From assembly GCA_002005505.1 (NCBI GenBank), contig MVGU01001550.1, forward strand, positions 7,501 through 71,500: 64,000 nucleotides of DNA, read 5' to 3'. This stretch comes from Botryococcus braunii (taxonomy: Eukaryota; Chlorophyta; Trebouxiophyceae). Both the position numbers and the translations under genes were made by a program. This document shows, one piece after another, positions 7,771 to 60,005 of this stretch. Positions within the stretch are counted from its first letter, which is position 1, and every line of letters starts with the position of its first letter. The notes under the pieces were generated by a model. It saw only the letters and a program-made list of their open reading frames with translations, had not been told where the DNA came from and did not search any database.

Positions 7771-8498
7771 TGTACAATTCTGGGCGTAATGTTCCCTGTA
7801 TGTCCCGGCACGAAGGGTGTTAAGCTCGGTCGGGTCTCTTGCTGTGTGTAGGAGAGCAAGCAGAGCCCGACTATGTGTTGACACTTGTGGCAACTGATCA
7901 GAGATAAGCACCCGTAGTGCTCTTTCAGTCCCAAACAAGTCATTACATTGCTTCTTGCTCTCTCTCAACGCCAAGGAATTCAAACTACCTCTTCTACGCA
8001 TCGACAGATAGTCCGCATTACCATTGTTCGATGAGCCAAGCATTAGCAACATTCTAATACTCTTATCTAGACCTCTTCCTAATAAATTGTTCATACAAGT
8101 CACACTAGGATGCAGCACTTTACCTGTATGTCCCGGCATGAAGGGTGTTAAGCTCGGTCGGGTCTCTTGCTGTGTGTAGGAGAGCAAGCAGAGCCCGACT
8201 ATGTGTTGACACTTGTGGCAACTGATCAGAGATAAGCACCCGTAGTGCTCTTTCAGTCCCAAACAAGTGCCGAGCCCTGCATGCCGGCTGCTTATATCCT
8301 TTCTAGCAGGAACGCGTCAAATTGCATTACTCTCTTTCTCCTAGGTGTAATCAGTCTAGATCAATTATGGCAGAACTCTAGAGTTCTGCCATCCATTACT
8401 CAACCTCAGAGATTGTTCACAGTGATTGCTTTAGAGATGCCTGGCCACTATTACTCTTCTGAGGGAAAGTCACTAATTGTCCTTTCACTATTATAACA
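7771..8498 (-). repeat. Copia B 3' LTR (728 bp) with internal repeat and intron signals
   Basis: Begins TGTACAATTC and ends TATTATAACA. In transcript sense it contains U3, repeat copy 1 (8268-8124, 145 bp), a donor GTAAAG directly after copy 1, a spacer, copy 2 (7940-7796, 145 bp) ending ATACAG, and the tail GGAAC...TACA. The possible intron is 8123-7796 (328 bases, GT...AG). A TATAAG box (minus, 8296-8291) lies about 25 bp upstream of copy 1, which makes the start of copy 1 a likely transcription start. The polypurine tract is just outside (AAGGGGAAG on minus). Confidence 0.95.
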
Positions 8499-8516
8499 CT
8501 TCCCCTTGACTTTTCC

Positions 8517-12600: not shown

Positions 12601-13840
12601 CCTGCCTCCGACACTCCGCCACTTCTGGTTCAGCCAACCTATACGTGGGGCGACAGGGCGGCGTATGGCCGGGTGTCATAGGTATAGTGTGCAAGATGCC
12701 CCTGTCTGGAGGTAAATCTGGCAATTTCTCTGGAAAAACATCCAAAAACTCTAACAACAATTGCTTCAAGTCTTGTGGCTTGTCAGTCATACCCTCAATA
12801 ACACGCCGGGAGTTTTCGTTTAAATCTAGGCCGGTGGCTCCGCTGTCTTCGTCCCAAGGATTATCCCCCTCTGTAGTTGCCACTGCAACCCTATGGAGAT
12901 AGTGTGTTGCACAAACTGAGTCCTGTCCACTCCTTGCCTCTCGCACAACCCCCCAAAACCCTGGACAACCCTTTCGCATAGCCCGCCTAGCTTGACCCTC
13001 ACTTATAACATTCACTTTTTGCGCCGGTAAGGTACCTCTTTCACTAGGGGGCAGCGGGTTGAGGAGTGTAATGTAGTGTGAGGAATGAGGCGGTTTAAGA
13101 TGAACTGCGCCATGATTGTAGTCAATTAAAGCTTTTCTTTCTTTCAGAAAATCCTCCCCAAGGATTAAGTCCACCCCATCCAACAGAGTTTCGCAGACAA
13201 TGAAATCCCTCTGTTCCACATATGTTTGAGATAAGTGCACCCTGAGCTTAGCTGTCCCCGCCGAGCGCATGGTCTGTCCATCTGCCAGCTGGACATCCAC
13301 ACACTTCTTTGACAGCCTCACTCCGAGAGTAGCTAGGAAGTCTAGTCTGACGAACGAGTGCGTCGCCCCGGTATCGACTAAAGCGACGCCCTTCACACCA
13401 GTACAGTTAACATGAAAAAGCATTGCTAAATGCCTATTTGAAAAAGCTTGAGCAAAAGATACGCTAAATTTGGGTCCGGCATGGTAAACTACATAGGAGT
13501 AGGGGACATCAGGTCCCTTGGTACCTTGCAGGATAACTCTCATGCCTTTTAGCCATGGGTACACTGCCTTGGATTTCGCCACTTTACTACCCATTAGAAA
13601 ACAAGCACTTAAATGTTTATTTGCTTGTTGCTCACGAGCGAAAGTGGATAAGGTGTCCTCCGCTTTACCTATAGGTACTGCAACAAATGTCGGTTTAGAC
13701 GTTCCATCGGGTAGGGTATTGTCAAAGGGGCCTCTAGAAAAAGAACAATGCAAAAACTCAGAACAACGTTGCTCGATAGAAGAATGAAAAGATTCCCAAG
13801 GAACAAAAGTGTGGAGGTTTCCTTCTCTAACTCCACTCAT
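9695..13840 (-). CDS. pol: Gypsy C Pol: protease, RT, RNase H, integrase, chromodomain
   Basis: A 1381-residue polyprotein. Protease active site VDTGATHSF lies at about residues 155-163. Reverse transcriptase begins near 420 ([19 protein letters not shown]) with catalytic YLDD near 552 (VVVYLDDLLVYS). RNase H follows (VISDASDYGVGAVL). The integrase has a zinc-binding region (GHPGRDRT...CDSCQRVKA) and a core with VDRLSKYAHF and AFHPQTDGQTERINR. A chromodomain is near the end (EYLVKWTGYQDIHNTWEPE), which in this family directs integration to modified chromatin. The tail is Lys/Arg rich. The ATG overlaps the gag stop by four bases (ATGA), suggesting reinitiation or a -1 frameshift. No break is seen. 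Confidence 0.97.
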   Translation of the reverse strand: MSGVREGNLHTFVPWESFHSSIEQRCSEFLHCSFSRGPFDNTLPDGTSKPTFVAVPIGKAEDTLSTFAREQQANKHLSACFLMGSKVAKSKAVYPWLKGMRVILQGTKGPDVPYSYVVYHAGPKFSVSFAQAFSNRHLAMLFHVNCTGVKGVALVDTGATHSFVRLDFLATLGVRLSKKCVDVQLADGQTMRSAGTAKLRVHLSQTYVEQRDFIVCETLLDGVDLILGEDFLKERKALIDYNHGAVHLKPPHSSHYITLLNPLPPSERGTLPAQKVNVISEGQARRAMRKGCPGFWGVVREARSGQDSVCATHYLHRVAVATTEGDNPWDEDSGATGLDLNENSRRVIEGMTDKPQDLKQLLLEFLDVFPEKLPDLPPDRGILHTIPMTPGHTPPCRPTYRLAEPEVAECRRQVEELLAQGFIRPSASPYGSPILFVRKKDGTFRMVIDYRAVNNLTRKDKYPLPRIDDLLDKLQGSKFFTSFDLLSGYHQVRLHESDVPKTAFRTPLGSFEFLVLPFGLTNAPSTFQRLMNSVFHDFIREGFVVVYLDDLLVYSKSREQHLEHLTRILTRLREEKLYAKLSKCEFFADELRYLGHVVGRDGIKVDPAKVRTIVDWPTPTGSTHVRQFLGLANYFRKFVPGYSTLAAPLTRLTGKVPWTWGEAEEHAFQSLKETLSNAPVLALPDSSKPFKVISDASDYGVGAVLLQEGRPVAYFSKKLSNAERNYSTTEKELAGVLYALKEWRCYLLGQTFTVVTDHRANSFLQTQTLLSPRRARWAEFLQLFDIQWEYAPGSTNPADPLSRSPHLAGAHVRALARAQAGVQASVQARAGPLGEHSPPVGVGAMGVGEAADSTTLPTPMDGLRGWGRVLSEAYEIDDWLHRKQNRRKLSFHSGLWKRGARIYVPSHHMSSDGVERNLRREILENLHGPPIVGHPGRDRTLELVQRSWWWPGMASDVADFVAQCDSCQRVKAPAHLPVGLLHPLEIPDRKWQSMSMDLITGLPRTKEGYDAIWVAVDRLSKYAHFAPTTTDASAEVIAQLLRTRVFTLHGFPTHIVSDRDPRWVGRFCQELFRLTGCRSALSTAFHPQTDGQTERINRILEDYLRHYVTGRHNDWDKHLCEAEFSYNNTFQQSINTTPFRLTFGQDPTIPFQEVYEGVTSSVREYVPAAAEFVRRMRWDLERARTCLKAAQDRMKAYADARRKDAPILKIGQPVLLSTKNLKFKHTRTRKLLPRFIGPFPIVQEVSSVAFRIRLPKTLRVHDVFHVSMLKPYKEGGTVQPPPLPEIIDGEEEYEVEAVLAHRERKLRGRKTAREYLVKWTGYQDIHNTWEPEDNLEHAREALQRYWDLTTEHRPEQKEKVDKKRKGRGKNAEKQRKRARRA

Positions 13841-15279
13841 GGCCTACCGCGTCCCCTTGCCCGGCCCCGTCCACGGCCCCGTCCTCTGATTCTCCGTCCC
13901 CGTCCGGCCCCACCCTGTGCTGTCCACCCTTGCATAGGGGCTGCTCCCACACCGAGGGACCTAAAGTTGTTGTGGCCCCCTCCTACCCGTCGCCGCAGCA
14001 AATCACCAGCCAAACCTGGAATTGGTGGAGCAGGCTGGTTTACCTCCTGTCTGGCCTTCACAATGTGTTGCAAGATGTCCCACTGTTGTTGATTAAGATA
14101 GGCGTTAGGGTCCTCTCTAAGTTTTTTGAGTGGGCAAAACCAAGATTCATGGCCAGGGGTATTGCACGCGTAACAGCTTCTGTTGAGGGGAAAGGCAACT
14201 CTAGTGTCCCTCCGATACTCGGGAGGTAAACCATCCCTGCGGGGATAAGGAGTCGCGCCTTGGATCGCGGCGACCGTGGCGAGCGGCGCAGGGTAACCAT
14301 GGGCCATCTGGATTGGCACTGCCACCATCGGTGCAGCTGCCATCATCCCAAATTCATGACTGTAGAAGGGGATTGTCCAGTCCTGTCCGACGCCAGCAAC
14401 GTGCGGTGCTGGGCCAACGGTGGCGGTTGCAATGCTTGAGTTAGGGCCCCCGGGGCCGGTTCTCAGTCTCTTTGCCTGTAAGGGCCCGCCCACCGCGGCA
14501 TCGTACCGTGTGAGTAAACTTATCAAGGCATCCAAATCATCAAAACCTTTGCCTGTTGTAGGGTTAATTGCTGAATATTTCTTTAAATCCTCACGTAGGC
14601 CTTTACGAAACCTATGGATTTTCTCCCCCATGGATAGGTCCCCACTGACTTCTACCTCTGCTAGCAAGGTTGTAAAGCGCTCAACATACTTCTCAACTGA
14701 TTCGTTGCCCTGATATACGGAATCAAGTTTATCCCTTGCCTTTGCAACCTTATCAGTGTTATCATAGACAGAAGACAACAGATCCCCAAAGAGAGCTAAA
14801 TCCACGACAGCACCTGGATTTTGCCTCATGTAAGCTGCTTTTTTGGTAAACCACACCTTTTTCACGCTCTTTCCTAAACAGCGCACTGCGTAATCAACCC
14901 TGAGGTTCGCGGGCACACCGGTGAGTTCACAATATGACCTCACATAGTCTAGGAATTGTTCGAGATCGTCCCTGCGTCCCTCGAATTTTTCCGGTAAATG
15001 CGTTCGAACTGTCGGGATTCTTGCCTGTGGGTTCGCGGGGTTTTGAGCCGCGACTTCAGCGTTTTCTGCCTGTTGTCGTAACTCAGCCAGTTCGGCAGCC
15101 ATTGCCGCTTCACGCCCCTCGGCCTCGGCCAAAGCAGCCTGCAGCTCTTCGACTTGTCGTCTAGCCATTTCTGAGCTGTCAGTGCTGGCGAGGCTCGGTG
15201 ACACAGGAAATCGAGAAAGTCCGGGTGGGGGCCCTAAACTCGGTGACCCGAGTCGTAGGCCCCTAAAAGCGCCACACAC
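13837..15279 (-). CDS. gag: Gypsy C Gag
   Basis: A 480-residue capsid/nucleocapsid protein. An inner Met near residue 38 (MARRQVEELQ) may be the real start, since it begins a heptad-like, probably coiled-coil stretch rich in Ala, Glu and Leu. The middle has the Ty3-type capsid region (HLPEKFEGRRDDLEQFLDYV, then VEKYVERFTTLL). A CCHC zinc knuckle follows (CYACNTPGHESWFC). The C-terminus is an Arg-Gly-rich RNA-binding tail. It packages the element RNA into particles. The stop overlaps the pol start as ATGA. Confidence 0.95.
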   Translation of the reverse strand: MCGAFRGLRLGSPSLGPPPGLSRFPVSPSLASTDSSEMARRQVEELQAALAEAEGREAAMAAELAELRQQAENAEVAAQNPANPQARIPTVRTHLPEKFEGRRDDLEQFLDYVRSYCELTGVPANLRVDYAVRCLGKSVKKVWFTKKAAYMRQNPGAVVDLALFGDLLSSVYDNTDKVAKARDKLDSVYQGNESVEKYVERFTTLLAEVEVSGDLSMGEKIHRFRKGLREDLKKYSAINPTTGKGFDDLDALISLLTRYDAAVGGPLQAKRLRTGPGGPNSSIATATVGPAPHVAGVGQDWTIPFYSHEFGMMAAAPMVAVPIQMAHGYPAPLATVAAIQGATPYPRRDGLPPEYRRDTRVAFPLNRSCYACNTPGHESWFCPLKKLREDPNAYLNQQQWDILQHIVKARQEVNQPAPPIPGLAGDLLRRRVGGGHNNFRSLGVGAAPMQGWTAQGGAGRGRRIRGRGRGRGRARGRGRP

Positions 15280-15371
15280 ACCACAACTAACCCAATCCGA
15301 ATCTATAGAATTCTCTGAAAAACTTCTTTGGGAAATTTTTTCAACGAGAGGAGCTCAAAATTTGGCCCCTC

Positions 15372-15383
15372 TCGCCGATACCA
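15372..15383 (-). promoter_or_regulatory. Gypsy C primer-binding site
   Basis: On the minus strand the sequence TGGTATCGGCGA lies one base after the 5' LTR. It begins with TGG, complementary to a tRNA CCA end. Gypsy F and H have the same 12 bases, so the three share a primer tRNA, whose identity I cannot determine. Confidence 0.85.
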
Positions 15384-15384
15384 G

Positions 15385-15683
15385 TGATACAGTAGAAACG
15401 GCCAAAGGATGCGAAAACAATGGTTACAAGTTGTTTGGGCTCCACCTCAGTACCCGTCCAGTCCGGCCCGGTCCTTCCTCTGCCAAAGCCTTATTCTATC
15501 CTGTTCTAAGTGTGTCCCTGTCTCCATCGCCAATGCGCCTTGTCAAGTAAGGGGTCACTCCCTTGGCGCGTGAAGTAGCCACTTCTTGGCGTGGAGGAAC
15601 ATAACTCACGAAGGGACCTTTATGGAGGTCCAAATCCTCGTGGTCCGGTCATTTTCCTATAACACGCGACTATTCCTGTTACA
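15385..15683 (-). repeat. Gypsy C 5' LTR (299 bp)
   Basis: The right-hand, promoter-side LTR of C. It looks identical to 8807-9105 and is followed by the second copy of the ATTGG target duplication at 15684-15688. Confidence 0.97.
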
Positions 15684-18497
15684 ATTGGCCTCTTTGATAG
15701 CTGCACTTGCCGCCATAAACTCAGCCTCTACAGTGGACGTGGCAACTGCAGACTGCTTCTTGCTTCCCCAAACTACAGCTCCTCCGAACACACGAATTAC
15801 ATAACCAGTAGTGGAAAACCGATGATCCTTATCACCACCATAATCTGCATCAACAAAACCCTCCAGCTCTGTATCCTTCCCTCCAAGGACCAGAACAAGA
15901 TCCCTGGTAGCCTTCAGATATTTCAGCACTCTGATGGCTTCATTCCAGTGAGCAGTAGTGGGAGTAATCCTGTACCTGGAAAGCACTCCCACAGCCTGGG
16001 AAATATCAGGCCTAGTGGTGTTGGCAATATACAACAGTGACCCAACCAGTTCACAATATCTGTGACCTGGTGGCAAGGGACTCCCAGCTCCAATGCTGGC
16101 ACTGTTGTCCTTAGACACAGGTTGCTGTGTGGCCACAAAATCCTTAGTCATAGGGGTGTCAGGCCCCACAGACTCCAGATCCAGCCCAAATTTCTCAACG
16201 AGTGCATCAATCTTGGGGATGCAGCTCAATGAAATCAACCCTTTTTCTCTATCTCTCATCACTTGGCAGCCCAAGAAATCTTTCACCTCTCCTAGATCAT
16301 GAATGGTGAATTCCTGCTTAAGCAACCCTTTCACTCTCTCAATATCACCCATGCCCTTGGAAACTATCAAGAGATCATCAACATAAATCAGCACAAAGGA
16401 TTTTCCTCCATCTACAGAACATTTCACACAGACACCAGCATCACTCTTGCACACCTCATACCCCATGGTATGTAGCTTCTCATTAAGGGTCTTATGCCAT
16501 GCCCTTGGAGCTTGCTTCAGGCCATACAGTGCCTTCTTCAAGCGACACACTGTGTTACCATCCCCATTTTCAAACCCAGGAGGTTGTGTGACATAGACCT
16601 CCTCCTCTAATTCACCATTTAAAAATGCAGTCTTGACATCCACCTGGTGAATTTCAAGACCCTCTTGTGCAGCCACTGACAGCAAGGCTCTCCTAGATCC
16701 ATAACTGCTGGTGGGAGCAAATACCTCCATTACATCCACTCCTGGAATTTGCCTACACCCTTGAGCCACTAGCCTAGCCTTGAACCTCAGCACATTACCA
16801 TGAGCATCCATTTTCACTGAGAAAATCCAGTGAACTGGGATTACTTTGTGACCACGAGGGGTTGGAACAAACTCCATCACCTCATGAGCATCTAAGGAGT
16901 TTTGCTCCTCCTGCATAGCAGCCTTCCAATATTCCCACTGTGGGGACTGCTGGGCCTCCTTTAGACTGGAAGGCACACTAATCTTCCCAAATCGCACCCC
17001 AGTGTGCTTCCCCTGATCTTTCTTACTCTCACTCTCACTGTCACCCACTACTCTTTCGCTGAATGTCGCTGCACTGCACGTGGGGACTGGGGGCAAAGGT
17101 CCAGATCTCCCCCTCTGCTCTTTCTCTCTCTTAGACTCACAGCTTGCCCTCTCAAGCTTGCTGCCAGACACTCTCACATCATCCTCCCAAACACAGGTAC
17201 CTCTCGGAAAGCTCTTGTAATTGGGGGAATTCTCACACTGTCCAGGCTTCCGATTCACCTCCTCAGACACACTCTCACATGGCTGACGGTTTGCAGTCCC
17301 GTCTGGACTCTCACAGGCATTTGAACCACTCTGCATTGCATGAGCTCTTGGTCTGTCTTGAGGCCGTGCCCATGTCTCTCTCTCTCTCTGTCTGCTCCCT
17401 GCTAGACATGAGCGCTGGGGCGCAGGCCCAGCAGCACACTCACATGCATGGCCCACACTTGCGTGGCTGGCACCACATTGTCCTTGGGCATCACGGATTG
17501 AATTCCCATCTCTAACATGTCTCTCAGGCACTGAGCAGGTCCCACCCATACAGCTCAGCTCGCTTGGACCATCTGCAGTCTGATCAGAGACTGCCCCCCT
17601 CTCATCTCTTACAAGTGAAGCAGGTCCCTCTGTGTCCTGACCCAATTCCTGCACTTCCCCTGGTCCCTGTGACTCTGTGTCACCTTCAGTCATCCCCTCT
17701 CGCTCACAGCTCTCTCCCTTATCCTGTGCCAGCAGGATATCTCTGGCCGCAGTTCGTTGCTCATAGCGTTGAGCCCGCGACAGTCCGTCCGGAGGCGGAA
17801 TGGTAGTTGCCGGATGAGTGTTACGCAGTGACTGCTGTGCTCGCTCTAATATCCGTTGGTGTTGCCCGCTGTCCGAACTTCCTCTCGCCAGTCGTTGAAT
17901 TGCGTCCAGAGCCCCGGACTGATCCAAGTCCGGCTGCTGTTCTCCCGTGCTTGTTTCAGGAGTCACATTGGGAATGCCCTCCTCTTGGGAAGGCTTCCCC
18001 TGACTAGCAGGCTCAGTTGCAGCCTGGTCAGAGGGTACTGGGGAGGAGCTGTCAGGTCTACTGCTGGAGCATGGGCTGCTGACAGTCTGATTCTGCGTGC
18101 TGCACTGTGGCACTGACACCACTGGGTTGCTGCTGTGCATTTGCCCTGGTAAGTCTTCAGGGTATGAGAACTGCTGAGGCTGGTCAGGGAGAGCTGCCAT
18201 TCCCACCCGAGTAGCTCCTCGAATGTGTTCCACAAATTGGACATCTCTGCTCTCTCTCCAGATCCCCCCTCCCATATAGACACGGTATGCCTTTGACACT
18301 GGAGAGTAACCAGTGAACATCCCAGCCACAGCCTTTGGTGCAAATGCCCCCCTCTGCTGATCAGGAACGTGCACAAATGTAAGGCATCCCCATGTGCGCA
18401 GCAAGGATACATCCGGTTTATATCCCATGAACATTTCACAGGGAGATAGGGGCCCATATTTAGGAGGGTGCAGGCTGTCTCCAGGGCTTCCTTCCAC
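15684..18497 (-). CDS. Copia B integrase end, linker, reverse transcriptase, RNase H
   Basis: Continues Copia B pol from the region GYKPDVSLLRTWG, through a cysteine-rich linker, to reverse transcriptase (FKARLVAQGC, LYGLKQAPRAWHKTL, YVDD in LIYVDDLLIVS) and RNase H (FVDADYGGD, VVWGSKKQSAVATSTVEAEF). It is cut at 15684 by Gypsy C inside KEANW and finishes at 8517-8806. The frame differs from the upstream part (17963-19939). A frameshift near 18450 with loss of a few codons separates the two. The linker has one copy of the GTCVWEDDV module. Confidence 0.95.
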
Positions 18498-19939
18498 ATA
18501 ACAGGGCTTGCTGCAGCAAAATTGAGGAGGGTCCTGGTGCGCTCCTTGAGGGTTCTGTTGGCTCTCTCAACAACTCCATTCTGCTGAGGGGTATATGGGG
18601 CAGATGTCTCCAGCTTAGTGCCCTGGGATGCACAAAATTCCTTGAACTTGGCATTTAAGAACTCTGTGCCTCTGTCAATGCGGATGCACTTCACTGTAGT
18701 TTCCTTCTCAGTTTGCCAATACAAAATTAGGTCTCTGACAACAGCTCCAATTACATCTTTTGACTTCACTGGCAGCACTGCCTTCCACCCAGATGCCTCA
18801 TCAGTTACAGTTACCCAAAAGCGTTCCCCAGTAATGGCTGCTGGTGATAAGGGGCCCACAGTGTCAATGTGGATTCTGTCAAGGGGTTTCTCAGCATGTC
18901 TAGAGCTTTCACCAAATGGGGGACGTGCATGCTTCCCCTCAATGCAAGCTTCACAGTACTTAGGACACTTTTCACAAGGGGACAATAAGGTGTCTAGGCC
19001 AGTAACCAGCTGCTCACTGCTCAGGCGTTTCATCCATGGATCTCCTGGGTGTCCCAATCTGCTGTGCCACAGGAAACGTTTGGCACAGTCATGGCTTTGA
19101 GCTGTGGAGCCTTTCTTCTTCAGAGCAGCTGTTACTGAATAAGGAACCTTCACTGGTGCTACTGGGAGGCAGTTATGGATATAATACAGGCCATTCTCTG
19201 GTTTCACAGGCATCTGCCAACCACTCGGTCCTGAGACAGCAGTGAATGCTCCCAGTCTATCTGTACTGAACCGGATTCCATCACGCAGAGCAGCAGATAC
19301 TGATAAAATATTGGTGGTGGCTGAGGGAACACACTGGACATGATGCAGCCACACTGGAACATGCTTAGAGGACATGAGACACACTGACCCAGTAGCAACA
19401 ATACCCCCAGTGGCATCAGATGTAGCGAGCAGCAGTGGAATAGGGTGGTCGTGTACTGTAGGGGCATGCAGCAGGGACAGGTTGTTCACAAGATGTACAG
19501 ACGCTCCACTGTCCACAAGCCACGACTGTTTGGACTGTTGGTGTTTACTGCCATCCAGCACATTATATGATACCACGTATGGCATACCTTCCGAGGGAGG
19601 AGAAGGTGGGCCTGGAGGAGGGTGCAGCAGTGGGAACGCTCCAGTGCCTGGGAATGCATGCTGCACGCTTGGAGGTGGCTGAGGTGCTCCAGGAAACTGC
19701 CCTTGGGGCCACATGGCAGCCAGTTGTAGTACAGCTGCCACCACATTGCGTTGTGTCTCTGCATCCCTTTTACGTTTGCGGCAGTCTCTCCAAAAATGGC
19801 CTTTCTTGTGGCAGTAGTTGCACGTGCCTCTCACTTCTCCCGTTGATTCTGTGTCTGCTGGCTGTCTGGAGGGAATGGCCCCGCTAGTAGAAGGGGCTGG
19901 GGCTGCCTCTAGTTGAGCAGGCATTGCTTTCATCACCAT
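17963..19939 (-). pseudogene. Copia B gag end, protease, integrase (frameshifted)
   Basis: Begins inside gag after an in-frame stop at 20018-20020. It shows a CCHC zinc knuckle (CNYCHKKGHFWRDC), an aspartic protease (WLVDSGASVHLVNN) and an integrase zinc region (LWHSRLGHPGDPWMKRL then CPKYCEAC). The integrase core shows HIDTVGPLSP, IDRGTEFLN and PQQNGVVERANRTLKERTRTLL. True homology ends near 18450 (LLNMGP), where a frameshift moves pol to the next frame. The rest of this open frame to 17963 is out of frame. Confidence 0.93.
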
Positions 19940-20017
19940 GGCAGGCTGTTCTCCATCATCGTTGTAGCCAGAAGCCTCTGCTGTGGTGGAAATGAGAGCT
20001 GCCAGCTGATCCAGGGG

Positions 20018-20635
20018 TTAAGCTACTGCAGTGGGTAGCAGCCCGGGAGGATTGGCTGCAGCTGGCAGTCCCTGCACTATCTGAGTGGCCACATGACCAT
20101 CCAAGAGGTCATGTCCATTGCGTTTCAAGCAGCTTTTGAGATTTATCATTCTGGACACATATTGAGAGATTGTTTCTCCACGTCTCATCCCTCTTGACAT
20201 TTCCTTCAGCCAGTCTGCATTGGCTTGAGTGTTGTAACCACCAACAAATTTCTTGCAAATGAACAGATATGCATCATATGCCGACGGCTTACTTGACAAT
20301 TCCCCTAACCATTCCTCTGGAACTGACTCATACAGCAGAAGCATTGCAGCCGCATTATGGATAGTCCCAGGCATGGCAGACTGAATGGCAGGAAAAGAAC
20401 CCTTAGCACTATTGGCCGCAGTAAAGGCATTGTCCCATACCACAAAATTTGTGCCATGACGATCCAGCTTAATATGCACCTTGACTTGGGTGGCTATGAC
20501 CTTGGGAAGTACATCTCCCTCACCCTTTGATGTACTGGGTGTACATGGCTGTCGTGTGGGGGACGATGTAGACGCCTCCTCTGTTGAGGGCTCCTCCTCT
20601 GATGGCTCCCTTGATTTAGATCTCTTCCTCGCCAT
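20018..20635 (-). pseudogene. gag: Copia B Gag, N-terminal part (premature stop)
   Basis: Starts MARKRSKSREP, with a Ser/Glu-rich N-terminus, then a Copia-type (UBN2-like) gag core with SVPEEWLGEL, ADWLKEMSRGMRRGETISQY and IVQGLPAA. The TAA at 20018-20020 replaces a codon that is Thr or similar in element A, and the same frame continues into 19939. Gag starts only 16 bases after the ORF0 stop. Confidence 0.92.
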
Positions 20636-20651
20636 GTTGCTCGACTGTCAC

Positions 20652-21177
20652 TCAGTCTTCGTTAGGTTCTGAACGCTGCGAGTCCCCGTCTTCGTCTCTG
20701 TTATCTGGGTCTGTGCACCACTCCTCTGGGCTGAATCCTTTTCTGCTGCCCAAAAGGGAAAGTAGGAAGTCCTCGTCAAGAGTGGCGAGAGCACACTCCA
20801 CTGCTGTGTAGGCTGCCCTTTCTTCCCAGTATTCGGGTTTGCTGGGTCCTCCGATCTGTTGTAGATGCCGTTCAAATAATGCTCGCGTGACGAAGCCTGG
20901 ATCCGCGTTGATGAATGAGCACTCCCACGCAGTTACTTTGTAGGCTGGGTATGCAGAGAATCGTCGTCTGAACCACTGAGGCTGTTCGACTTTACCTAGT
21001 CCGTACGCGCGGCTGACAAAATCCTTCACCAGGAATGCTCGTTCTTCTGGTGTTCTCGGTCCCGTATCTCCTCCAGCTCGCCTCAGGCTATCGTATGTAG
21101 GTGGTGAAGGAGGTGGGGGGTATAAAAGGTCTTTTACCGCCAGTCGACATCCTTCCGCTCTGCTTCGTTCGACCCAT
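20652..21177 (-). pseudogene. Copia B ORF0, extra reading frame upstream of gag
   Basis: An open frame between the primer-binding site and gag. The likely start ATG is at 21177-21175 (MGRTKQSGRM, basic). The frame shifts by one base in a run of six C near 21115-21120. The downstream part (read to 20652) is similar to ORF0 of A: RTPEERAFLVKDFV, then FSAYPAYKVTAWECSFIN, then DPGFVTRALF, and an acidic C-terminus. I do not recognise the domain. It is not gag, protease, integrase or reverse transcriptase. Similarity between A and B argues that it is a real protein of these elements. Confidence 0.75.
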
Positions 21178-21221
21178 CGTAGGCTCGGAACATACTTTCA
21201 GTTGCCCAGCTCAAGAGTTGG

Positions 21222-21234
21222 TGGGCCCATAACC
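21222..21234 (-). promoter_or_regulatory. Copia B primer-binding site (internal initiator tRNA-Met type)
   Basis: Minus-strand GGTTATGGGCCCA directly adjoins the 5' LTR. It is complementary to the anticodon-loop region of initiator tRNA-Met (CCCAUAACC). This is the half-tRNA priming known from Drosophila copia. Confidence 0.9.
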
Positions 21235-21962
21235 TGTACAATTCTGGGCGTAATGTTCCCTGTATGTCCCGGCACGAAGGGTGTTAAGCTCGGTCGAGTC
21301 TCTTGCTGTGTGTAGGAGAGCAAGCAGAGCCCGACTATGTGTTGACACTTGTGGCAACTGATCAGAGATAAGCACCCGTAGTGCTCTTTCAGTCCCAAAC
21401 AAGTCATTACATTGCTTCTTGCTCTCTCTCAACGCCAAGGAATTCAAACTACCTCTTCTACGCATCGACAGATAGTCCGCATTACCATCGTTCGATGAGC
21501 CAAGCATTAGCAACATTCTAATACTCTTATCTAGACCTCTTCCTAATCAATTGTTCATACAAGTCACACTAGGATGCAGCACTTTACCTGTATGTCCCGG
21601 CACGAAGGGTGTTAAGCTCGGTCGGGTCTCTTGCTATGTGTAGGAGAGCAAGAAGAGCCCGACTATGTGTTGACACTTGTGGCAACTGATCAGAGATAAG
21701 CACCCGTAGTTCTCTTTCAGTCCCAAACAAGTGCCGAGCCCTTCATGCCGGCTGCTTATATCCTTTCTAGCAGGAACGCGTCAAATTGCATTACTCTCTT
21801 TCTCCTAGGTGTAATCAGTCTAGATCAATTATGGCAGAACTCTAGAGTTCTGCCATCCATTACTCAACCAAAGAGATTGTTCACAGTGATTGCTTTAGAG
21901 ATGCCTGGCCACTATTACTCTTCTGAGGGAAAGTCACTAATTGTCCTTTCACTATTATAACA
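21235..21962 (-). repeat. Copia B 5' LTR (728 bp) with internal repeat and intron signals
   Basis: Same plan as the left copy. In transcript sense: copy 1 21732-21588, donor GTAAAG, copy 2 21404-21260, then a 25-base tail before the primer-binding site. The possible intron is 21587-21260 (328 bases). TATAAG (minus, 21760-21755) lies about 25 bp before copy 1. CTTAAC upstream of the ATACAG acceptor could serve as a branch point. Followed by GTGAG, the target duplication. Confidence 0.95.
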
Positions 21963-23430: not shown

Positions 23431-24124
23431 TGGTGAGTTCTGAACATTATTATTGAATGCCTTGTGCTTTAAGTGATCTTCATGTGTGCACTATTAGGAT
23501 ATGGGTCCATTGAGAACATAAGGTACCTTGAGACACGGCAGATTCTGGACGTTTTCGAACATAAGGTACAATCCTATCTAGATCACACGTTTGTCGGATG
23601 AACTCTTAAGGCTGCCCCACCGGAGTGAATACCAACTGGTTGTGAAAGATGCTGGGCATGACCAGATGCTAGTCTTGTCCAACAGTTGTGTGTGACACTC
23701 AGCAGACAGTCGTACGGACTGTAGCTGGAGTAACTTCGTCTATTGACGACCTGTCTGCTTTGTACAGGTACGGTGCGGCAGTGTGTGTTGTATCATTGTT
23801 GCTATTGTGAGAGTGAACAAGCTTAGTGTACCCTGTAGTCACTCAAACAGACAAGGGACAGTGACTTCAGGGAGTATAGGCATGTACTTGAATGTAGCCG
23901 TCTAGAGCCTTATCTAGTGATTGCTTGATCGGTGCTTGTGTACAAGATAATGATGTAACGGAACTGGTTGTGAAAGATGCTGGGCATGACCAGATGCTTG
24001 TCTTGTCCAACAGTTGTGTGTGACACTCAGCAGACAGTCGTACGGACTGTAGCTGGAGTAACTTCGTCTATTGACGACCTGTCTGCTTTGTACAGGGAAA
24101 GCCGATTGCCCATAACCTTTCACA
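23431..24124 (+). repeat. Copia D 5' LTR (694 bp) with internal repeat and intron signals
   Basis: Repeat copy 1 is 23634-23767 and copy 2 is 23962-24095, both 134 bp and nearly identical. Copy 1 ends TTTGTACAG|GTACGG (donor). Copy 2 ends TTTGTACAG|GGAAAG (acceptor, preceded by a pyrimidine-rich stretch). The possible intron is 23768-24095 (328 bases). The tail holds GCCCATAACC, which can pair with the adjoining primer-binding site. Compared with the right LTR it lacks 14 bp near 23530. Confidence 0.95.
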
Positions 24125-44115: not shown

Positions 44116-44823
44116 TGTTGAGTTCTGAACATTACTATTGAATGCCTTGTGCTTTAAGTGATCTTCATGTGTGCACTATTAGGATATGGGTCCATTGAGA
44201 ACATAAGGTACCTTGATCAATGTCTCATGAGACACGGCAGATTCTGGACGTTTTCGAACATAAGGTACAATCCTATCTAGATCACACGTTTGTCGGATGA
44301 ACTCTTAAGGCTGCCCCACCGGAGTGAATACCAACTGGTTGTGAAAGATGCTGGGCATGACCAGATGCTAGTCTTGTCCAACAGTTGTGTGTGACACTCA
44401 GCAGACAGTCGTACGGACTGTAGCTGGAGTAACTTCGTCTATTGACGACCTGTCGGCTTTGTACAGGTACGGTGCGGCAGTGTGTGTTGTATCATTGTTG
44501 CTATTGTGAGAGTGAACAAGCTTAGTGTACCCTGTAGTCACTCAAACAGACAAGGGACAGTGACTTCAGGGAGTATAGGCATGTACTTGAATGTAGCCGT
44601 CTAGAGCCTTATCTAGTGATTGCTTGATCGGTGCTTGTGTACAAGATAATGATGTAACGGAACTGGTTGTGAAAGATGCTGGGCATGACCAGATGCTAGT
44701 CTTGTCCAACAGTTGTGTGTGACACTCAGCAGACAGTCGTACGGACTGTAGCTGGAGTAACTTCGTCTATTGACGACCTGTCTGCTTTGTACAGGGAAAG
44801 CCGATTGCCCATAACCTTTCACA
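44116..44823 (+). repeat. Copia D 3' LTR (708 bp) with internal repeat
   Basis: Starts TGTTGAGTTC. Repeat copy 1 is 44333-44466, followed by donor GTACGG. Copy 2 is 44661-44794, followed by GGAAAG. The tail ends CTTTCACA, and the flank CGTTT belongs to element A. Confidence 0.95.
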
Positions 44824-44944: not shown

Positions 44945-45637
44945 TGTTAGGTTATGGGCTGGGCGTATTCCTCTGTGGTGGCAGCACGGAGGGTGTTAGT
45001 TACGGTCCTCTCTACTTGTTCGTTGTGAAGCAGAGCCAAGGACATTAACAATACAGGACTGATTGGTGACGTTAAGTAAACACCCGACATGCTTGTGAAG
45101 TCCCAATCAAGTGAATTACAAGCTGCTCTCTCGTTCTCTCATAACAACGGAATTCAAACTGCCCTAATCAGTTCTCACTCTGATAAGAACAAGCTCATTG
45201 TCCGATGCTTAGAACGTCAAGCCCATACACCTAACATGATATTCTAAAGGTTTACAGAGCCTCATATGTTCTATTCAGTTCACCATTACGTTACCTGTGT
45301 GGTGGCAGCACGGAGGGTGTTAGTTACGGTCCTCTCTACTTGTTCGTTTTGAAGTAGAGCCAAGGACATTAACAATACAGGACTGATTGGTGACGTTAAG
45401 TAAACACCCGACGTGCTTGTGAAGTCCCAATCAAGTGCCTGACCAACTCGAGCAGCCACCACTACCTTCTTGCAACAAACGTGTCTGTAACTTGCGTTAT
45501 GTTTATCCACTTTCAAACACATGCTAACTACCGAGAGATTATCTTTCCGTCCTGTTGGTATCTTATTGTTGTCACTGGCGGAATTGCCACTATTACTCCT
45601 CTGAGGGAAAGGCACAAATAAATAATCTAACACAACA
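44945..45637 (-). repeat. Copia A 5' LTR (693 bp) with internal repeat and intron signals
   Basis: Starts TGTTAGGTTATGGG and ends CTAACACAACA. In transcript sense: copy 1 45436-45295 (142 bp) ending CCACACAG|GTAACG, and copy 2 45112-44973 (140 bp) ending CCACCACAG|AGGAAT. The possible intron is 45294-44973 (322 bases). ACTAAC about 25 bases before the acceptor is a good branch-point match. Confidence 0.95.
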
Positions 45638-48111: not shown

Positions 48112-48982
48112 TGTTGGAAAAATGGACACTAACATGTATACCTTAGGTATTTGTGTGACATGTTGGGTCATTTCATATTAGCATGTTTGTGAGCTACATC
48201 CATCATTAAAAGGCTTTATAATACTTAAAATACATATAAACAATAAATTATAGTTGTTCTGTACTGGGTTGCACTTGTGGTGTGTGGTACTTCAATGATA
48301 AATGACACTCACACCGTTTCATAGGGGCCATGGTACAAAATCGGCCTGTTTTCTGCCAAGTTTCGAATAAGGTACACTCGGCCCGGATCTCATCGATCGT
48401 GAGACTTTAGTACTGTGGCTCTTGGTGTTTGATCCGAGCCTCGTATTGGTTGTGAGTTAAAGTTCCGAGTCACTTAGATTGGAGACTATCTTCGATCGAG
48501 ATCCGTACTGTTCATCGACGACCATGTCGAATCATAGAGGTACATTGAAATTCCAATGCATAGTAGTGAGGCATGCAAACTTGATCGTGCCCATACGCTT
48601 TCAAGATCTGGAGTTGCAAACCTGTCAGGAGGCTTATAAATATGTAGTCTCCATGGTTAGTATAAATAGGAAGTGCTCTTACAGGCCAGTTAGTTCTGAG
48701 TGCCCTTATCAGACTCCTGTGCCGTTTGCTTGGTCGTGTTTCGTCCACTTCTGCAAGCTTTTGTTTGAGCACAGTTCACCAACTCTAAAGAGTGTGATTC
48801 ACAGGTAATTGCAACATCATTAGTTAGCTGTTATTGTAACTAGTTCTGAGTGCCCTTATCAGACTCCTGTGCCGTTTGCATGGTCATGTTTCGTCCACTT
48901 CTACAAGCTTTTGTTTGAGCACAGTTCACCAACTCTAAAGAGTGTGAGTCACAGGGATCAATATCTAACTTCAAATTCTGCA
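48112..48982 (+). repeat. Copia I 3' LTR with internal repeat and intron signals
   Basis: Starts TGTTGGAAAAATGG after a purine tract (GAGGGGAGG). The end at TTCTGCA is tentative. Copy 1 is 48691-48804, ending TTCACAG|GTAATT. Copy 2 is 48841-48954, ending GTCACAG|GGATCA. The possible intron is 48805-48954 (150 bases). A TATAAATAG box at 48661-48669 lies 30 bp before copy 1. Confidence 0.8.
48661..48669 (+). promoter_or_regulatory. TATA box of Copia I LTR
   Basis: TATAAATAG 30 bp upstream of the start of repeat copy 1, which is the expected TATA-to-start spacing. Confidence 0.6.
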
Positions 48983-55015: not shown

Positions 55016-55980
55016 TTTTAAACCATAGCAAACACACACCCAACCTATCCACATATGTGAACGTACCGACTGCTCTCTTATCAGGGCGCCCTTGGCCCTC
55101 AGCAGTCCCAGGAGTTTAACGGCTACTCCGAACCGATCTGCACAATATGTGGTTCATCAGAGATCTTAACAATATAGTTATTTAACCAGCAGGAGCTTGC
55201 TTGTTAACCGTGTCTGTACTCACCGCTCATAACGTTACTGCAGTGTGTAACTCTCAACACACAAATAGCCTTACTGTTCTTCCAACAGTAACAAACAAGC
55301 AATGCAACTCCTGCAACACAAACACATATAATGCTTCATTATCAACCAAGACATCAGCATGCATGTGCTTGAACCCTGCGATCGCAGCCACCCGCCCGCG
55401 ACCGTTACTCTTGCCACCGATCCCATGCTTACCTGTATTGTAATGAGTGAGATAGCCGTTTATCAAGCAGTCACTCAATACAGAGCAAACACTTATCAGC
55501 TTGGAGCTCGAACCTAGATGTATTCCACATCCAATCGACTGCCAAGCTCTCTCGCGATCTGACGTTTCTATGCTTCCTCATCGTAACCGGCGGTAATGGT
55601 ACAGTTCCGTTCGAGAAGCCGTACCGTACTGCATGGCCACATAAACAACCCTGACTTGGCCCTATGCCAACGTGTAGCCCTGCAGCTGCACCAGGGATCC
55701 CAAACTTATACACGTGTACACACTCAATGCAGTCTTTACTTCGTGACCACACCGTCACTAGTACAAACCTGTACTGCGTGGAGGTCACTATATGATCAAC
55801 CTGACTGATCACCATACATTACCCTAGATACGCAATCAGGCGCATCTTCTTCCTTGTACTGCACACGTGGAGAAGTTCAAGTTATACAATGTTTCCTAAA
55901 GTTTGATAAACTGATAGCGCCCTTGTATCTAAGTACGTTTGCCGTCACGTATCTATACGTACCTATCAGTTTATACAACA
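55016..55980 (-). repeat. Copia J-family LTR, inverted and truncated (J')
   Basis: The reverse complement starts TGTTGTATAAACTG and follows the J LTR through U3, exon 1, intron 1, exon 2, intron 2, exon 3 and part of intron 3, where it stops. It is diverged by many substitutions, but the splice sites are kept (GTAAGC...TTGCAG and GTGAGT...GTGCAG). It lies head to head with the J 5' LTR. Confidence 0.88.
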
Positions 55981-55983
55981 CAC

Positions 55984-56071
<88 letters not shown>
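55981..56071. repeat. (AC)n microsatellite between two inverted LTRs
   Basis: About 90 bp of AC repeat forming the centre of a roughly 2-kb imperfect palindrome. Confidence 0.97.
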
Positions 56072-56514
56072 TGTTGTATAAACTGATAGGTACGTATAGA
56101 TACGTGATGGCAAACGTACTAGATACAGGGAAGCTATCAGTTTGTCAAGAGGTTTTAGGAAACATTGTATAACTTGAACTTCTCCATGTGTGGAGTACAA
56201 GTAAGAAGATGCGCCTGATTGCGTGTCTAAGGGTAATGTATTATGTTCAGTTAGGTTGATCATATAGTGACCTCCATGCAGTACAGGTCTTGTACTAGTG
56301 ACGGTAAGGTCACAAGGTAAAGACTCCATTGAGTGTGTACACGTGTATAAGTATGAGATCCCTGGTGCAGCTATAGAGCTACACGTTGGCATAGGGCCAA
56401 GTCAGGGTTGTTTATGTGGCCATGCAGTACGGTACAGCCTCTCGAAAGGAACTGTACCGTTACCGCGGTTACGATCAGAAGGCATAGAAACGCCAGTTCG
56501 CGAGCAAGCTTGGC

Positions 56515-57152
56515 AGTCGATGGGCTGTGGAATGCATCTGGGCTTCGAGCTCCAAGCTGAATAGTGTTTGCTCTGTATTGAAGGACTGCTTGATATACTG
56601 CTGTCACACTAATTTCAATACAGGTAAGCTAGCGATCGTTGGCAAGGATAACGGTCGCAGTCGTGTGGCTGCGATCGCAGGCGTTAAACACATGCATACT
56701 GATGTTTCTGCTGATAATGAAACATTACATGTGTCTTGTGTTGCAGGAGCTGCATTGCTTGTATGTTACTGTTGTGCGAACAGTAAGGCTATTTGTGTGT
56801 GACGAGTTACACACTGGTTATAGCGGTGAGTACAGATACGTATAACAAGCTTGCACCTGCTGGTTAAATAACTGTTTTGTTTTGATCTCTGATGATCCAC
56901 ATATTGTGCAGATTGGTTGGGAGTAGCCATTAAACTCCTGGGACTGCTGAAGGGCCAAGGGTGTCCTGATCGGAGAGCAGTCGGTACGTACACATATGTG
57001 GATAAGTTGCGTGTGTGTTATATGGTTTAGATATATTTTATGGACACTGATGAACCCACAAGTAAATCGTAACGCTCGGGTGCAGGCAGATATAGACGGC
57101 AGTGCGAGCACTGGTCTATATAGACATTGAGAGTACTTGGTGGTGTTCACAG
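56515..57152 (+). other. J LTR repeat copy 1, with three introns
   Basis: Exons 56515-56623, 56747-56825, 56912-56983 and 57086-57152. Introns are 56624-56746 (GTAAGC...TTGCAG, 123 bases), 56826-56911 (GTGAGT...GTGCAG, 86) and 56984-57085 (GTACGT...GTGCAG, 102). Exon boundaries are fixed by comparison with copy 2. Non-coding: no long frame crosses the exons. Confidence 0.93.
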
Positions 57153-57179
57153 GTAAGTATACGTAAACCATTTGTAACG

Positions 57180-57506
57180 AGTCGATGGGGTCTGGAATGC
57201 ATCTGGGCTTCGAGCTCCAAGCTGAATAGTGTTTGCTCTGTATTGAAGGACTGCTTGATATACTGCTGTCACACTCATTTCAATACAGGAGCTGCATTGC
57301 TTGTATGTTACTGTTGTGCGAACAGTAAGGCTATTTGTGTGTGACGAGTTACACACTGGTTATAGCGATTGGTTGGGAGTAGCCATTAAACTCCTGGGAC
57401 TGCTGAAGGGCCAAGGGTGTCCTGATCGGAGAGCAGTCGGCAGATATAGACTGCAGTGCGAGCACTGGTCTATATAGACATTGAGAGTACTTGGTGGTGT
57501 TCACAG
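57180..57506 (+). other. J LTR repeat copy 2, precisely spliced
   Basis: Segments 57180-57288, 57289-57367, 57368-57439 and 57440-57506 have exactly the lengths of the four exons of copy 1 (109, 79, 72 and 67 bases) and are nearly identical to them. All three introns are absent without scar. This is a cDNA copy of spliced RNA sitting inside an LTR. Confidence 0.95.
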
Positions 57507-57573
57507 GAAGTGATCCTCTGACGGCATACGTACCGCTTACAGTTACGGCATCCTCCAACTAATACACAACAAA

Positions 57574-57586
57574 GGTGCTGGGCCCA
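57574..57586 (+). promoter_or_regulatory. Copia J primer-binding site, variant
   Basis: GGTGCTGGGCCCA two bases after the LTR. It differs at two positions from the GGTTATGGGCCCA of A, B and D. Read on, it resembles the sense strand of initiator tRNA-Met rather than its complement. Confidence 0.55.
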
Positions 57587-57597
57587 CAACTTGCTGC

Positions 57598-58578
57598 ATG
57601 CCAGAGGAGGGAGTCATTGTGATCGAAGATACACCGGAAACAGAAGAGCAACGGACGCCGAGACCTTTCCCAACAACGAGAGGAAGAGGACTGCGACCTG
57701 CATTACGTCAACAGCATCCAAGAAGACCAGAATACTCAGAGTATCCCATTCCTTTTGTCAGGACTCACTTTGAAGTTCCTGACTATTTTGGAGACCCGGG
57801 TCTGTATATTCATATTGAGAGGCCTGGTGTTCCAAAGGGTCAATTTCAAAGGCCAAGTGTGCATCACCTAGACATTGTGCTGAACAATCTCCCTGATCCT
57901 GTTGAACGAGCAAACTACATATTTGTTAAGACTTGTGAAAGTGAAGAAGGGTCCGTCCTGTGTGGAGGAATTATATCAACGGCATTCTTGGCTGGTCTGA
58001 CACAGCCACGAGAGGAGCCCATTTTGGTCAAGTGGGAGGAATTGATTGTGTTCAGTGATCCCCTTGCTGATAGCCAGGTGCATGAGGTAGCAGAGCTATA
58101 CGGGAAGAGCCTTCCAAAAGAAGACTGGGAGGTGCACTATTTTCTGAAAGTGTGGAACCGTTTGCAGGAGTTATTTAAGCTAACTGCAGACGGGCCACGG
58201 GAAGGTTTTCCTTCGTTCTTTCTCAACAGAGCTATTGTTGAGGGAAGAGAGGGAACATGACAGGTACTCAGGTGGTACAGAGAATACCACGTGTATATCG
58301 AGCTGGTACAGTTCCAGTTCCGTTTACACCAAGGGCAGAGTAAGGCAGTATTTGACCGACTGCCATCATGGAGGGAGGTGGAGGAGCTGGGACTCAATCC
58401 GTTGCGGCTCCATCCGGATTACTTCCAGACCTACGAGGGGATCTCACGGGGGTGGCTGGAACCAGTGATGGGGTTACAGCGACTGACATGGGAAGAGATT
58501 CAGGAGTTGGAACAGCAGTGGCTAGGGGATCTGAGCCGGCCAGTACATCTGGCCGGGAAGATCCGACTAGTCCAGTGA
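57598..58578 (+). pseudogene. Copia J ORF0-position frame with in-frame TGA
   Basis: A frame starting 12 bases after the primer-binding site (MPEEGVIVIEDTPE). It includes FVRTHFEVPDYFGDPGLYI, RPSVHHLDIVLNNLPDPVE and EPILVKWEELIVFSDPLAD. A TGA at 58258-58260 is followed in the same frame by WYREYHVYIELVQFQFRL and LPSWREVEELGLNPLRLHP, to a stop at 58578. The reading before and after looks equally protein-like, so the TGA is probably a mutation. It has the same position as ORF0 of A and B, but I see no clear sequence similarity. Its 3' part overlaps gag. Confidence 0.65.
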
Positions 58579-59315
58579 ACTCCAGTCTGCAGGTCACCAC
58601 CTCCTTAGATAGACTGGGTTTTTCGTTGGACATCTGGAAACAAAATGTGTTCCATTGTGCCGTGAGCAGAAATGTGCTGGAATGCCTAAAAACGTCCATG
58701 CCGGGGACTAAAGGGGATGCAGTGGCACTGCATTTGTTGCTGCAAAAGGTTCCAGAAGTGTGGGCTCAGAAGGTGGCATTCGCTGAATCTGCAGCAGTGG
58801 CATTTAAATGGATTATGAGCCAGTTCCAAGGGGGAGCAAACTTGGAAATCAATGACCAATGGCTGGAGCTGTTGGACAGTGAAATGATGGGGAGTGAGGG
58901 CACGTTGAAAGAATATGTGGCTAGGAAAGAGTTGCTGGCAAAAAGACTGAACGATAACAACATGCCAGTAACGCAAACAAAACTCAAGAAGTCAATTCTG
59001 AAGTGCCTTCCGTGGCAGTTTGATGCTCATAAACCAAGTTTATCTTCTTCCACTGCTACATGCAATATTAACCAAACTTTGGCTGCCATAAGGGTGGTTG
59101 CAGAAACCATAGGTTTCAATGATCAGCAACCAAGGGCTCCAAGGGCGGCTGTTGTCCGCAAGCCGGGTCCGGCTGTCAGGCACGATAATCGGACGTGCTA
59201 TGAGTGTGGTGAGAGGGGGCACATTAAAATGAACTGCCCAAGACTTGTGCACCCTCCTAACCGAGGTAATCCACCCACTGGAGAAGAGGTAAATCCAAGG
59301 GCAGGGATGGCATCT
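58368..59315 (+). CDS. gag: Copia J Gag (interrupted by element E)
   Basis: Starts in another frame inside ORF0 (MEGGGGAGTQSV). The gag core shows RLGFSLDIWKQNVFHCAV, LLLQKVPEVWAQKVAF, IMSQFQGGANLEINDQWLE and LKKSILKCLPWQF. The zinc knuckle is CYECGERGHIKMNC. The frame is cut at 59315 by the Copia E LTR shortly after the zinc knuckle, so protease and pol are not in the window. Confidence 0.88.
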
Positions 59316-60005
59316 TGTTAGGTTATGGGCTTGGCGTATTCCTGTGCAGTGGCGGCACGGAGGGTGTGAGTCAAAGTTCGCTCTACTGTGTAACGAAGAG
59401 TAGAGTCTAGAACATGAACAATCAAGGACTGATTGGGCAACTTTAAGGAAACACCCGGAGTGCTTGTGAAGTCCCAAACAAGTATTACAATTGCTCACTT
59501 GCTCTCTCTTAACAACGGAATTCAAACTATCCTAACTGGTACGTACTCAGAAAGGATCAATCTCATTGTCCGATGATAAGATAGCCAAGCACATACACAT
59601 AACACGAAATATTAAGGTCAACAAAGCCTCAACTCTCCCAATCTATTCACCATCACGTTACCTGTGCAGTGGCGGCACGGAGGGTGTGAGTCAAAGTTCG
59701 CTCTACTGTGTGACGAAGAGTAGAGTCTAGAACATGAACAATCAAGGACTGATTGGGCAACTTTAAGGAAACACCCGGAGTGCTTGTGAAGTCCCAAACA
59801 AGTGCCTTGCCTCTCCGTGCCAGCACCACTACCTTCCTGCACTAAACGTGTCTGTAACTTGCGTTATCTTTATCTTCATTCAAATTGTTCCTAACCGCTA
59901 AGTCTTTGTAGTTTCGCCCATATTAGTCATTTATTATTGTCACTGACGGAATAGCCACTATTACTCCACTGAGGGAAAGGCATAAATAACTCATCCAATA
60001 TAACA
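59316..60005 (-). repeat. Copia E 3' LTR (690 bp) with internal repeat and intron signals
   Basis: Starts TGTTAGGTTATGGG and ends CCAATATAACA. In transcript sense: copy 1 59803-59662 (142 bp) ending CTGCACAG|GTAACG, and copy 2 59483-59342 (142 bp) ending CTGCACAG|GAATAC. The possible intron is 59661-59342 (320 bases). The tail holds GCCCATAACC, as in A and D. Confidence 0.95.

Follow-up and report, generated by a model that had tools for sequence, protein, structure and literature searches.

In element J, a retrotransposon of Botryococcus braunii classed as Ty1/copia from its domain order, the long terminal repeat (LTR) carries the same leader twice, once interrupted by three introns (copy 1) and once spliced (copy 2), and very probably the job of the R region is split between these two places in the LTR, with copy 2 being renewed by spliced strong-stop DNA. 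Reverse transcription of spliced RNA should erase introns; J appears to be copied through spliced RNA and yet to keep its introns, and its apparent means is a spliced leader copy held as the landing site for strand transfer. The structure is found in both LTRs of an element and is conserved across the family, the two copies change in concert and are nearly identical in young insertions, and the signals around them are conserved. The analysis thereby goes beyond a preliminary description of a single LTR: the duplicated leader is a family-wide trait, and the comparisons support a spliced copy that is renewed continually rather than made once.

Structure of the J LTR

The stretch of 64,000 nucleotides analysed here (the window, whose coordinates are used unless a contig is named) covers positions 7501-71500 of contig C517 in a 176-Mb assembly. 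The J LTR lies on the plus strand at 56072..57571; it is 1500 nt long, reads TGTTGT...ACAACA, and its limits are set by the 5-bp target-site duplications (TSDs), primer binding sites (PBSs) and polypurine tracts of its relatives. Its parts follow one another as U3, the three-intron leader, a 27-nt spacer, the spliced leader and a 65-nt tail. U3 (56072..56514), presumably the promoter part, contains a TATA-like CATAGAAA at 56483-56490, that is, at -32 to -25 relative to copy 1. Copy 1 consists of exon 1 (56515..56623, 109 nt), intron 1 (56624..56746, 123 nt, GTAAGC..TTGCAG), exon 2 (56747..56825, 79 nt), intron 2 (56826..56911, 86 nt, GTGAGT..GTGCAG), exon 3 (56912..56983, 72 nt), intron 3 (56984..57085, 102 nt, GTACGT..GTGCAG) and exon 4 (57086..57152, 67 nt). 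The preliminary description had given precisely this arrangement of four exons and three GT..AG introns of 123, 86 and 102 nt, and its coordinates are exact. Equally, its claim that the same exons of 109, 79, 72 and 67 nt recur 27 nt downstream, joined exactly, agrees with copy 2 (57180..57506, 327 nt), which reads E1E2E3E4 with 4/327 mismatches. Since copy 2 opens at the same base, A56515 is the predicted transcription start.

The spacer (57153..57179, 27 nt) begins with a 5' splice site sequence, GTAAGT, at 57153 and has TGTAA at 57173-57177. It thus looks like the start of a fourth intron, and it closes with a poly(A) signal; neither feature is in the preliminary description. Spacer and copy 2 together would make up intron 4 (57153..57506), GTAAGT..TCACAG followed by GAAGTG, and the first 10-20 nt of copy 2 would serve as the 3' R. 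A U5-like tail of 65 nt (57507..57571) extends to the LTR end, and the PBS, AAGGTGCTGGGCCCA (57572..57586), begins 65 nt past copy 2; the structure does lie inside an LTR and beside a PBS, as had been proposed. In some relatives the PBS is GGTTATGGGCCCA, namely in L016, L017, F2, F3 and F5, while the window's J and most J copies listed have GGTGCTGGGCCCA, a 2-nt difference near the primer 3' side. The GGTTATGGGCCCA form presumably fits half of the initiator tRNA, for which Drosophila copia offers a parallel.

The gag part of J (57598..59314, plus strand) is read in a frame from 57598 that has a stop at 58258-58260, and at about 59315, before pol, the element is interrupted by a nested minus-strand copia element. 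Head to head with J lies a related LTR, J' (55016..55980, minus strand), and nothing but an (AC)n run occupies the interval between them (55981-56071). J' had been said to keep the same splice sites: both sites of introns 1 and 2 and the donor of intron 3 are indeed there, the acceptor of intron 3 is not, and because J' ends inside that intron it shows neither exon 4 nor copy 2.

Elsewhere in the assembly, elements are found with the whole structure in both LTRs and with 5-bp TSDs: L012 (CACCC), L013 (GGGAG), L014 (AAGAC), L015 (CATGA) and L017 (CTTAC). The purine tract AAAAGGGGAAGA stands upstream of the 3' LTR in J relatives. L011 has the structure in both LTRs as well, and since a polypurine tract precedes its first LTR, it is taken to belong to an array of the form LTR-internal-LTR, in which no TSD is to be expected. 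Regularly spaced same-strand J-type leaders occur on C735 (4743, 10411 and 16068; 5.66-5.67 kb apart) and C41 (398189-419017; 6.7-7.0 kb apart), a spacing as in LTR-internal-LTR-internal arrays.

Conservation across the family

Exact patterns searched in the 176-Mb genome show copy 1 exon 1 running into intron 1 at 131 places and into exon 2 at 3, and copy 2 exon 1 running into exon 2 at 73 places and into intron 1 at none. Backwards-pattern controls gave 0 in all four counts, against the 131 and 73 places, so that the matches are not due to chance; the counts are lower bounds, as diverged copies escape exact patterns. The expectation that other J LTRs would keep the introns in copy 1 and lack them in copy 2 is thus borne out, with intron 1 present in 0/73 second copies and absent from 3/134 first copies, plus one LTR found by BLAST, L003. 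The three intronless first copies belong to both LTRs of one element on C48 and to one LTR on C365. L003 reads U3-E1E2E3E4-tail, and no 3' LTR was found for it (none in L051).

Annotation covered 50 LTRs, leaving out repeats of other loci (L001, L002, L006-L008 and L021), and 49 of them pair a copy 1 that has one or more introns with a spliced copy 2, with damage in some cases. Of 148 aligned gap segments, 134 have GT..AG ends, and shifted alignments or altered ends account for the other 14; the view that the introns are old and conserved stands. The locus L020 (C563:37101-47000) has N at 5732/9900 bases. Among viral contigs, two stretches fit a pattern for related elements, and none was confirmed.

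Concerted change and insertion age

The two copies were compared in 51 LTRs, 49 that passed the filters and two added, which are not independent, several being LTR pairs or duplicates of one insertion; the C84 pair (L039/L036) was dropped, L036 being truncated and its 17% distance due to misalignment. At the 45 sites where copy 1 varies between LTRs, 2227/2258 cells show the same state in the two copies of an LTR. Their distance averages 1.1% and reaches at most 4.3% across the subfamilies J, J' and J'', while exons of different subfamilies differ by 11% (J-J') or 16% (J-J''), and copies dealt at random give 6.4%, with a minimum of 4.9% in 10,000 shuffles. A 2-nt insertion adjoining the start (AGTCTCGATGG) is present in both copies in all six LTRs that have it. 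On the other side, only in 35/51 LTRs is no copy 1 closer to copy 2 than the one in the same LTR.

Divergence between the copies tracks insertion age roughly, with an imperfect fit. In L013, L014 and L017, whose LTR pairs show one difference each, there are no mismatches between copies in either LTR; L011, L012, L015 and C286, with LTR pairs 0.27-0.60% apart, have 0-4/327; and the C21 element, with its pair 2.58% apart, has 8/328 in the 5' LTR. The copies exceed the LTR pair in L012 (0.92%, 3/327 in each LTR, against 0.33%) and in one LTR of L011 (1.22% against 0.60%). At least one L012 copy difference predates the insertion, because it is present in both LTRs. From this rough tracking it follows that the copy pair is made around each insertion, that is, it is made, or made nearly identical, at or about one round before. 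Copy 2 is no fossil.

Signals at the spacer and at the tail boundary

The splice-like start of the spacer is GTAAAT in 44/51 LTRs, with GTAAGT in the window copy; GTAAAT is the weaker donor site, which is counted against the model. TGTAA ends 1, 2 or 4 nt upstream of copy 2 in 50/51 LTRs and occurs once in the window's J LTR. Searched across 50 LTRs, it stands at the spacer end in 49, and its 12 other occurrences are scattered, none recurrent. UGUAA is the poly(A) signal of chlorophytes, with a peak about 17 nt before the cleavage site as given in the accounts drawn on here (PMC1868727, PMC4701671), and from that distance cleavage is predicted within copy 2, some 10-20 nt from its start. At the end of copy 2 stands CACAG|G, which may act as a 3' splice site; the CAG of E4 would then be an exon end in copy 1 and an acceptor in copy 2. 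TATA-like boxes are found upstream of copy 1 in J (-32) and in two of the further families described below, F (-28) and X3 (-30); K, F5 and G showed none before copy 1, and none was found in the 45 nt upstream of copy 2 in any of the six LTRs.

Some relatives have U3, copy 1, spacer and copy 2 in common with J and differ in tail and internal region; they look non-autonomous by their sequence. Seven of the nine other-tail LTRs (L037, L040, L042, L045, L047, L050 and L053), all with J-type leaders, were compared with L013; L025 and L062 were excluded for their J' and J'' leaders. In 7/7, identity to L013 drops at the E4|tail junction, from 96-99.5% in the 200 nt before it to 55-66% in the 66 nt that follow; the seven LTRs represent about five insertions, L047/L050 being an LTR pair and L040/L042 having the same flank. 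A boundary exactly at the splice junction would be the expected trace of copying copy 1 via RNA spliced to the tail of the respective element. All three frames of L047 contain stops over the first kilobase, and after the tails of L047 and L053 stops in three frames are seen with a remnant of the gag start.

Proposed replication cycle and alternatives

In the cycle that we propose, transcription would start at copy 1, introns 1-3 would be spliced, and the spacer donor would be spliced to the acceptor with which copy 2 ends, by which intron 4 is removed and the RNA 5' end becomes E1E2E3E4-tail-PBS. At the 3' LTR, the TGTAA of the spacer would set the RNA end about 10-20 nt into copy 2, so that U3, the intron-bearing copy 1, the spacer and the opening bases of E1 would be present at the 3' end. 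Strong-stop DNA of the minus strand, made from the spliced 5' end, would then land on the E1 bases adjoining the spacer, and the minus strand would be extended through the spacer, the intron-containing copy 1 and U3, giving a new LTR in which copy 1 still has its introns and copy 2 is newly made in spliced form. The first strand transfer would thus proceed as usual, and only the source of the two R copies would be new. In this cycle the start site, the splicing of the four introns, the 3' end and the landing and transfer step are inferred from sequence. The predicted start at 56515 and the predicted 3' end at about 57190 fall in different stretches of the LTR, unlike those of an LTR with a single R. 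With the acceptor of copy 2 downstream of the predicted cleavage, intron 4 would be protected but introns 1-3 would not; that the model gives no reason why introns 1-3 would be spliced at the RNA 5' end and yet kept at the 3' end is counted against it. As the preliminary description argued, loss of the three introns through spliced RNA and reverse transcription is upheld.

It is hardly credible that a spliced leader was inserted once beside an ancestral copy 1 and that both have been passively inherited since, with splicing irrelevant today. A single event would account for the identical breakpoints in all subfamilies seen, but it predicts that the copies differ by no less than the subfamilies do (11-16%), whereas subfamily changes occur in both copies of the same LTR, the copies are identical in the three youngest elements, and the intron ends have remained GT..AG in 134/148 gap segments. 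The concerted pattern refutes passive inheritance unless some other process homogenises the copies. Such a process could be gene conversion or unequal crossing-over at the DNA level, keeping the copy 1 exons and copy 2 alike after a single origin of the spliced copy, and crossover-type products do exist (L046 and L049). This process would nevertheless have to reach all four of the short exons before insertion, in each lineage, and yet hardly ever move an intron in or out (0/73, 3/134), and it leaves unaccounted for the sharp E4|tail boundary, the TGTAA beside copy 2 and the recurrence of the plan in families whose leaders are dissimilar; we regard it as improbable.

Another reading retains the spliced RNA and makes its use rarer: most cycles would be conventional and start at copy 2, and copy 2 would be renewed through a side route, e.g., template switching between co-packaged RNAs. 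The C174 element, in which mixing between elements is confined to copy 2, speaks for such a route. Against it stand the TATA-like boxes, which J, F and X3 have about 30 nt upstream of copy 1 and none of the six LTRs has upstream of copy 2, as well as the identity of the copies in the youngest elements, and it is judged very unlikely.

Exceptional elements

The LTRs of the C174 element are 0.38% apart over 1060 nt, and copy 1 is of the J type in both. Exons 1-2 of copy 2, in both LTRs, carry alleles of the L033/L034/L035/L039 type at 5/6 shared sites, at which nearly all other LTRs are concordant between copies; this pattern is what strand transfer between two packaged RNAs would make. The C174 tail is of the J type, that is, of the subfamily of copy 1, from which it follows that the second RNA was entered within the leader and that a second template switch is needed. 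At the sixth site (149), a base confined to copy 2 is also present in L033 and L035, so that a common parent is needed, and this, like the second switch, is counted against the model.

In the C48 element both LTRs read U3-E1E2E3E4-tail without introns or spacer, with 1/840 positions differing. It is a normal insertion with the TSD CCTCC, a PBS and a purine tract, and therefore an LTR can be born intronless; such LTRs are rare in this genome. Intronless LTRs also lack the TGTAA spacer, which could be why they are rare. C48 is read as a slip product of strand transfer, and it is the sole intronless case used as support. Recombination between direct repeats could alternatively have given rise to C365, L003, L061 and even the ancestor of C48, and for L003, C365 and L061 slips of strand transfer and recombination fit equally. 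The spacer is kept in 0/4 spliced copy-1 LTRs examined; thus splicing at the RNA 3' end left no visible product. L061 (C255:37801-39900) contains two J'' LTRs in inverted orientation, their PBS ends turned towards each other across about 275 nt; in both, intron 2 is present and E3 is joined to E4, with intron 3, spacer and copy 2 missing, which looks like a palindromic insertion of an exon-3-altered variant.

Two LTRs with an additional segment, L046 and L049, were considered as cDNAs of partly spliced RNA in the slot of copy 2 and rejected, both fitting unequal crossing-over. The extra segment of L049 is in one LTR only; its 5' LTR, L052, is normal, the pair being 2.58% apart over U3 and copy 1. 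The second and third E3 of L049 are both 73 nt at 95%, the first being 72 nt at 100%, and L049 is the reciprocal of the L061 deletion. L046 is a solo LTR with an extra spliced unit, and its copies 2 and 3 have a change absent from L044, which has the same 12-nt flank and a copy 2 cut in exon 4; L044 and L046 look like a segmental duplicate. Since recombination between copies does occur at the DNA level in L046 and L049, some of the sharing could be gene conversion.

Relation to known elements

A CCHC zinc knuckle, integrase before RVT_2, TG..CA LTRs and a 5-bp TSD are features of Ty1/copia elements, and on these J is assigned to them. In the L014 ORF, Pfam places rve at 533-633 and RVT_2 at 943-1188, so that integrase is upstream of reverse transcriptase; the zinc knuckle (PF00098) is at 279-295 in the L014 ORFs with an E value of 2.3e-4, and TG..CA LTRs with a 5-bp TSD are found in L012, L013, L014, L015, L017, L046 and C48. 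No env family and no GIY-YIG family was detected in the three L014 ORFs scanned. Named relatives of the pol are from Tetradesmus, three Volvox species, an arachnid, an oomycete and a land plant; the assembly itself gives 35 chlorophyll a/b-binding matches. Unlike an ordinary Ty1/copia LTR, that of J holds the leader twice, with and without introns, and its start and poly(A) sites are predicted to be separated by splicing.

BARE is an LTR retrotransposon with a spliceosomal intron, and in Ogre and EVADE the unspliced RNA is the copied form. J would differ from the latter two in that its RNA is predicted to be copied after splicing, with the introns put back. Ogre and EVADE are intron-bearing LTR elements whose intron is said, in the source cited, to make subgenomic RNAs (PMC12786077). 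In foamy viruses the major splice donor is a part of R and precedes the poly(A) signal (PMC3694450). The J LTR resembles them in having a splice donor just before the poly(A) signal (GTAAGT at 57153 and TGTAA at 57173, both of predicted use), and a donor in this position could keep the 5' poly(A) site silent by way of U1. They are unlike J in that no duplicated spliced leader is described for them in the source cited and in the type of pol, that of J being RVT_2 of the copia type, neither spumaretroviral nor of the Penelope type. Penelope-like elements keep introns across transposition as J does, which the account cited ascribes to antisense or perhaps unspliced templates (PMC3846280); unlike J, they have pseudo-LTRs and other enzymes. 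Among the matches listed in open PMC text, as seen from titles and abstract openings, no description of this LTR plan was found.

If the proposed cycle is true, J provides a further solution to intron retention beside unspliced or antisense templates, splicing is a required step in the copying of an LTR element, and a start site and a poly(A) site are separated within one LTR.

The same plan in other repeat families

Seven further sites in the window, belonging to four families (K with F5, F, G and X3), carry a duplicated leader of 114-145 nt. GT follows the first leader, the second is followed by G after AG, TGTAA stands at the spacer end, and 1-4 differences separate the leader copies. The LTR of the nested copia element K is on the minus strand at 59341..59803, with copy 1 at 59803-59661, the spacer, and copy 2 at 59483-59341. 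The same donor, acceptor and TGTAA are found in the LTRs of family F (7792..8268, minus strand, and 21256-21732), family G (23634..24096, plus strand, and 44333-44795) and the K-related F5 (44970..45437, minus strand), and the plan recurs in the repeat family X3 (48691..48955, plus strand), which has TATAAATA as the TATA-like box before copy 1. F1/F2 and F3/F4 are LTR pairs. When the window is compared with itself, 8/10 local duplications of at least 100 nt, J and the seven others, have donor, acceptor and TGTAA; the two without this plan are 36471/36523 and 42788/43177.

Leader identity among K, F, G and X3 is 54-57% between K and F, which may be related by this measure, and 18-42%, i.e., background, in the other cross-family pairs. 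J is the member with three extra introns in its leader, which it probably restores in each cycle. That several families of one genome share the plan suggests that it has been overlooked and is not rare.

K, F and G adjoin copia pol frames. X3, with 391 first-look candidates, of which 40 were scored, and two same-strand pairs 4.1 and 4.4 kb apart, is guessed to be an LTR. The window regions 7771-21962 and 23431-44827 are nested, with far-apart copia LTR pairs (F and G, respectively) enclosing chromodomain Ty3-type frames.
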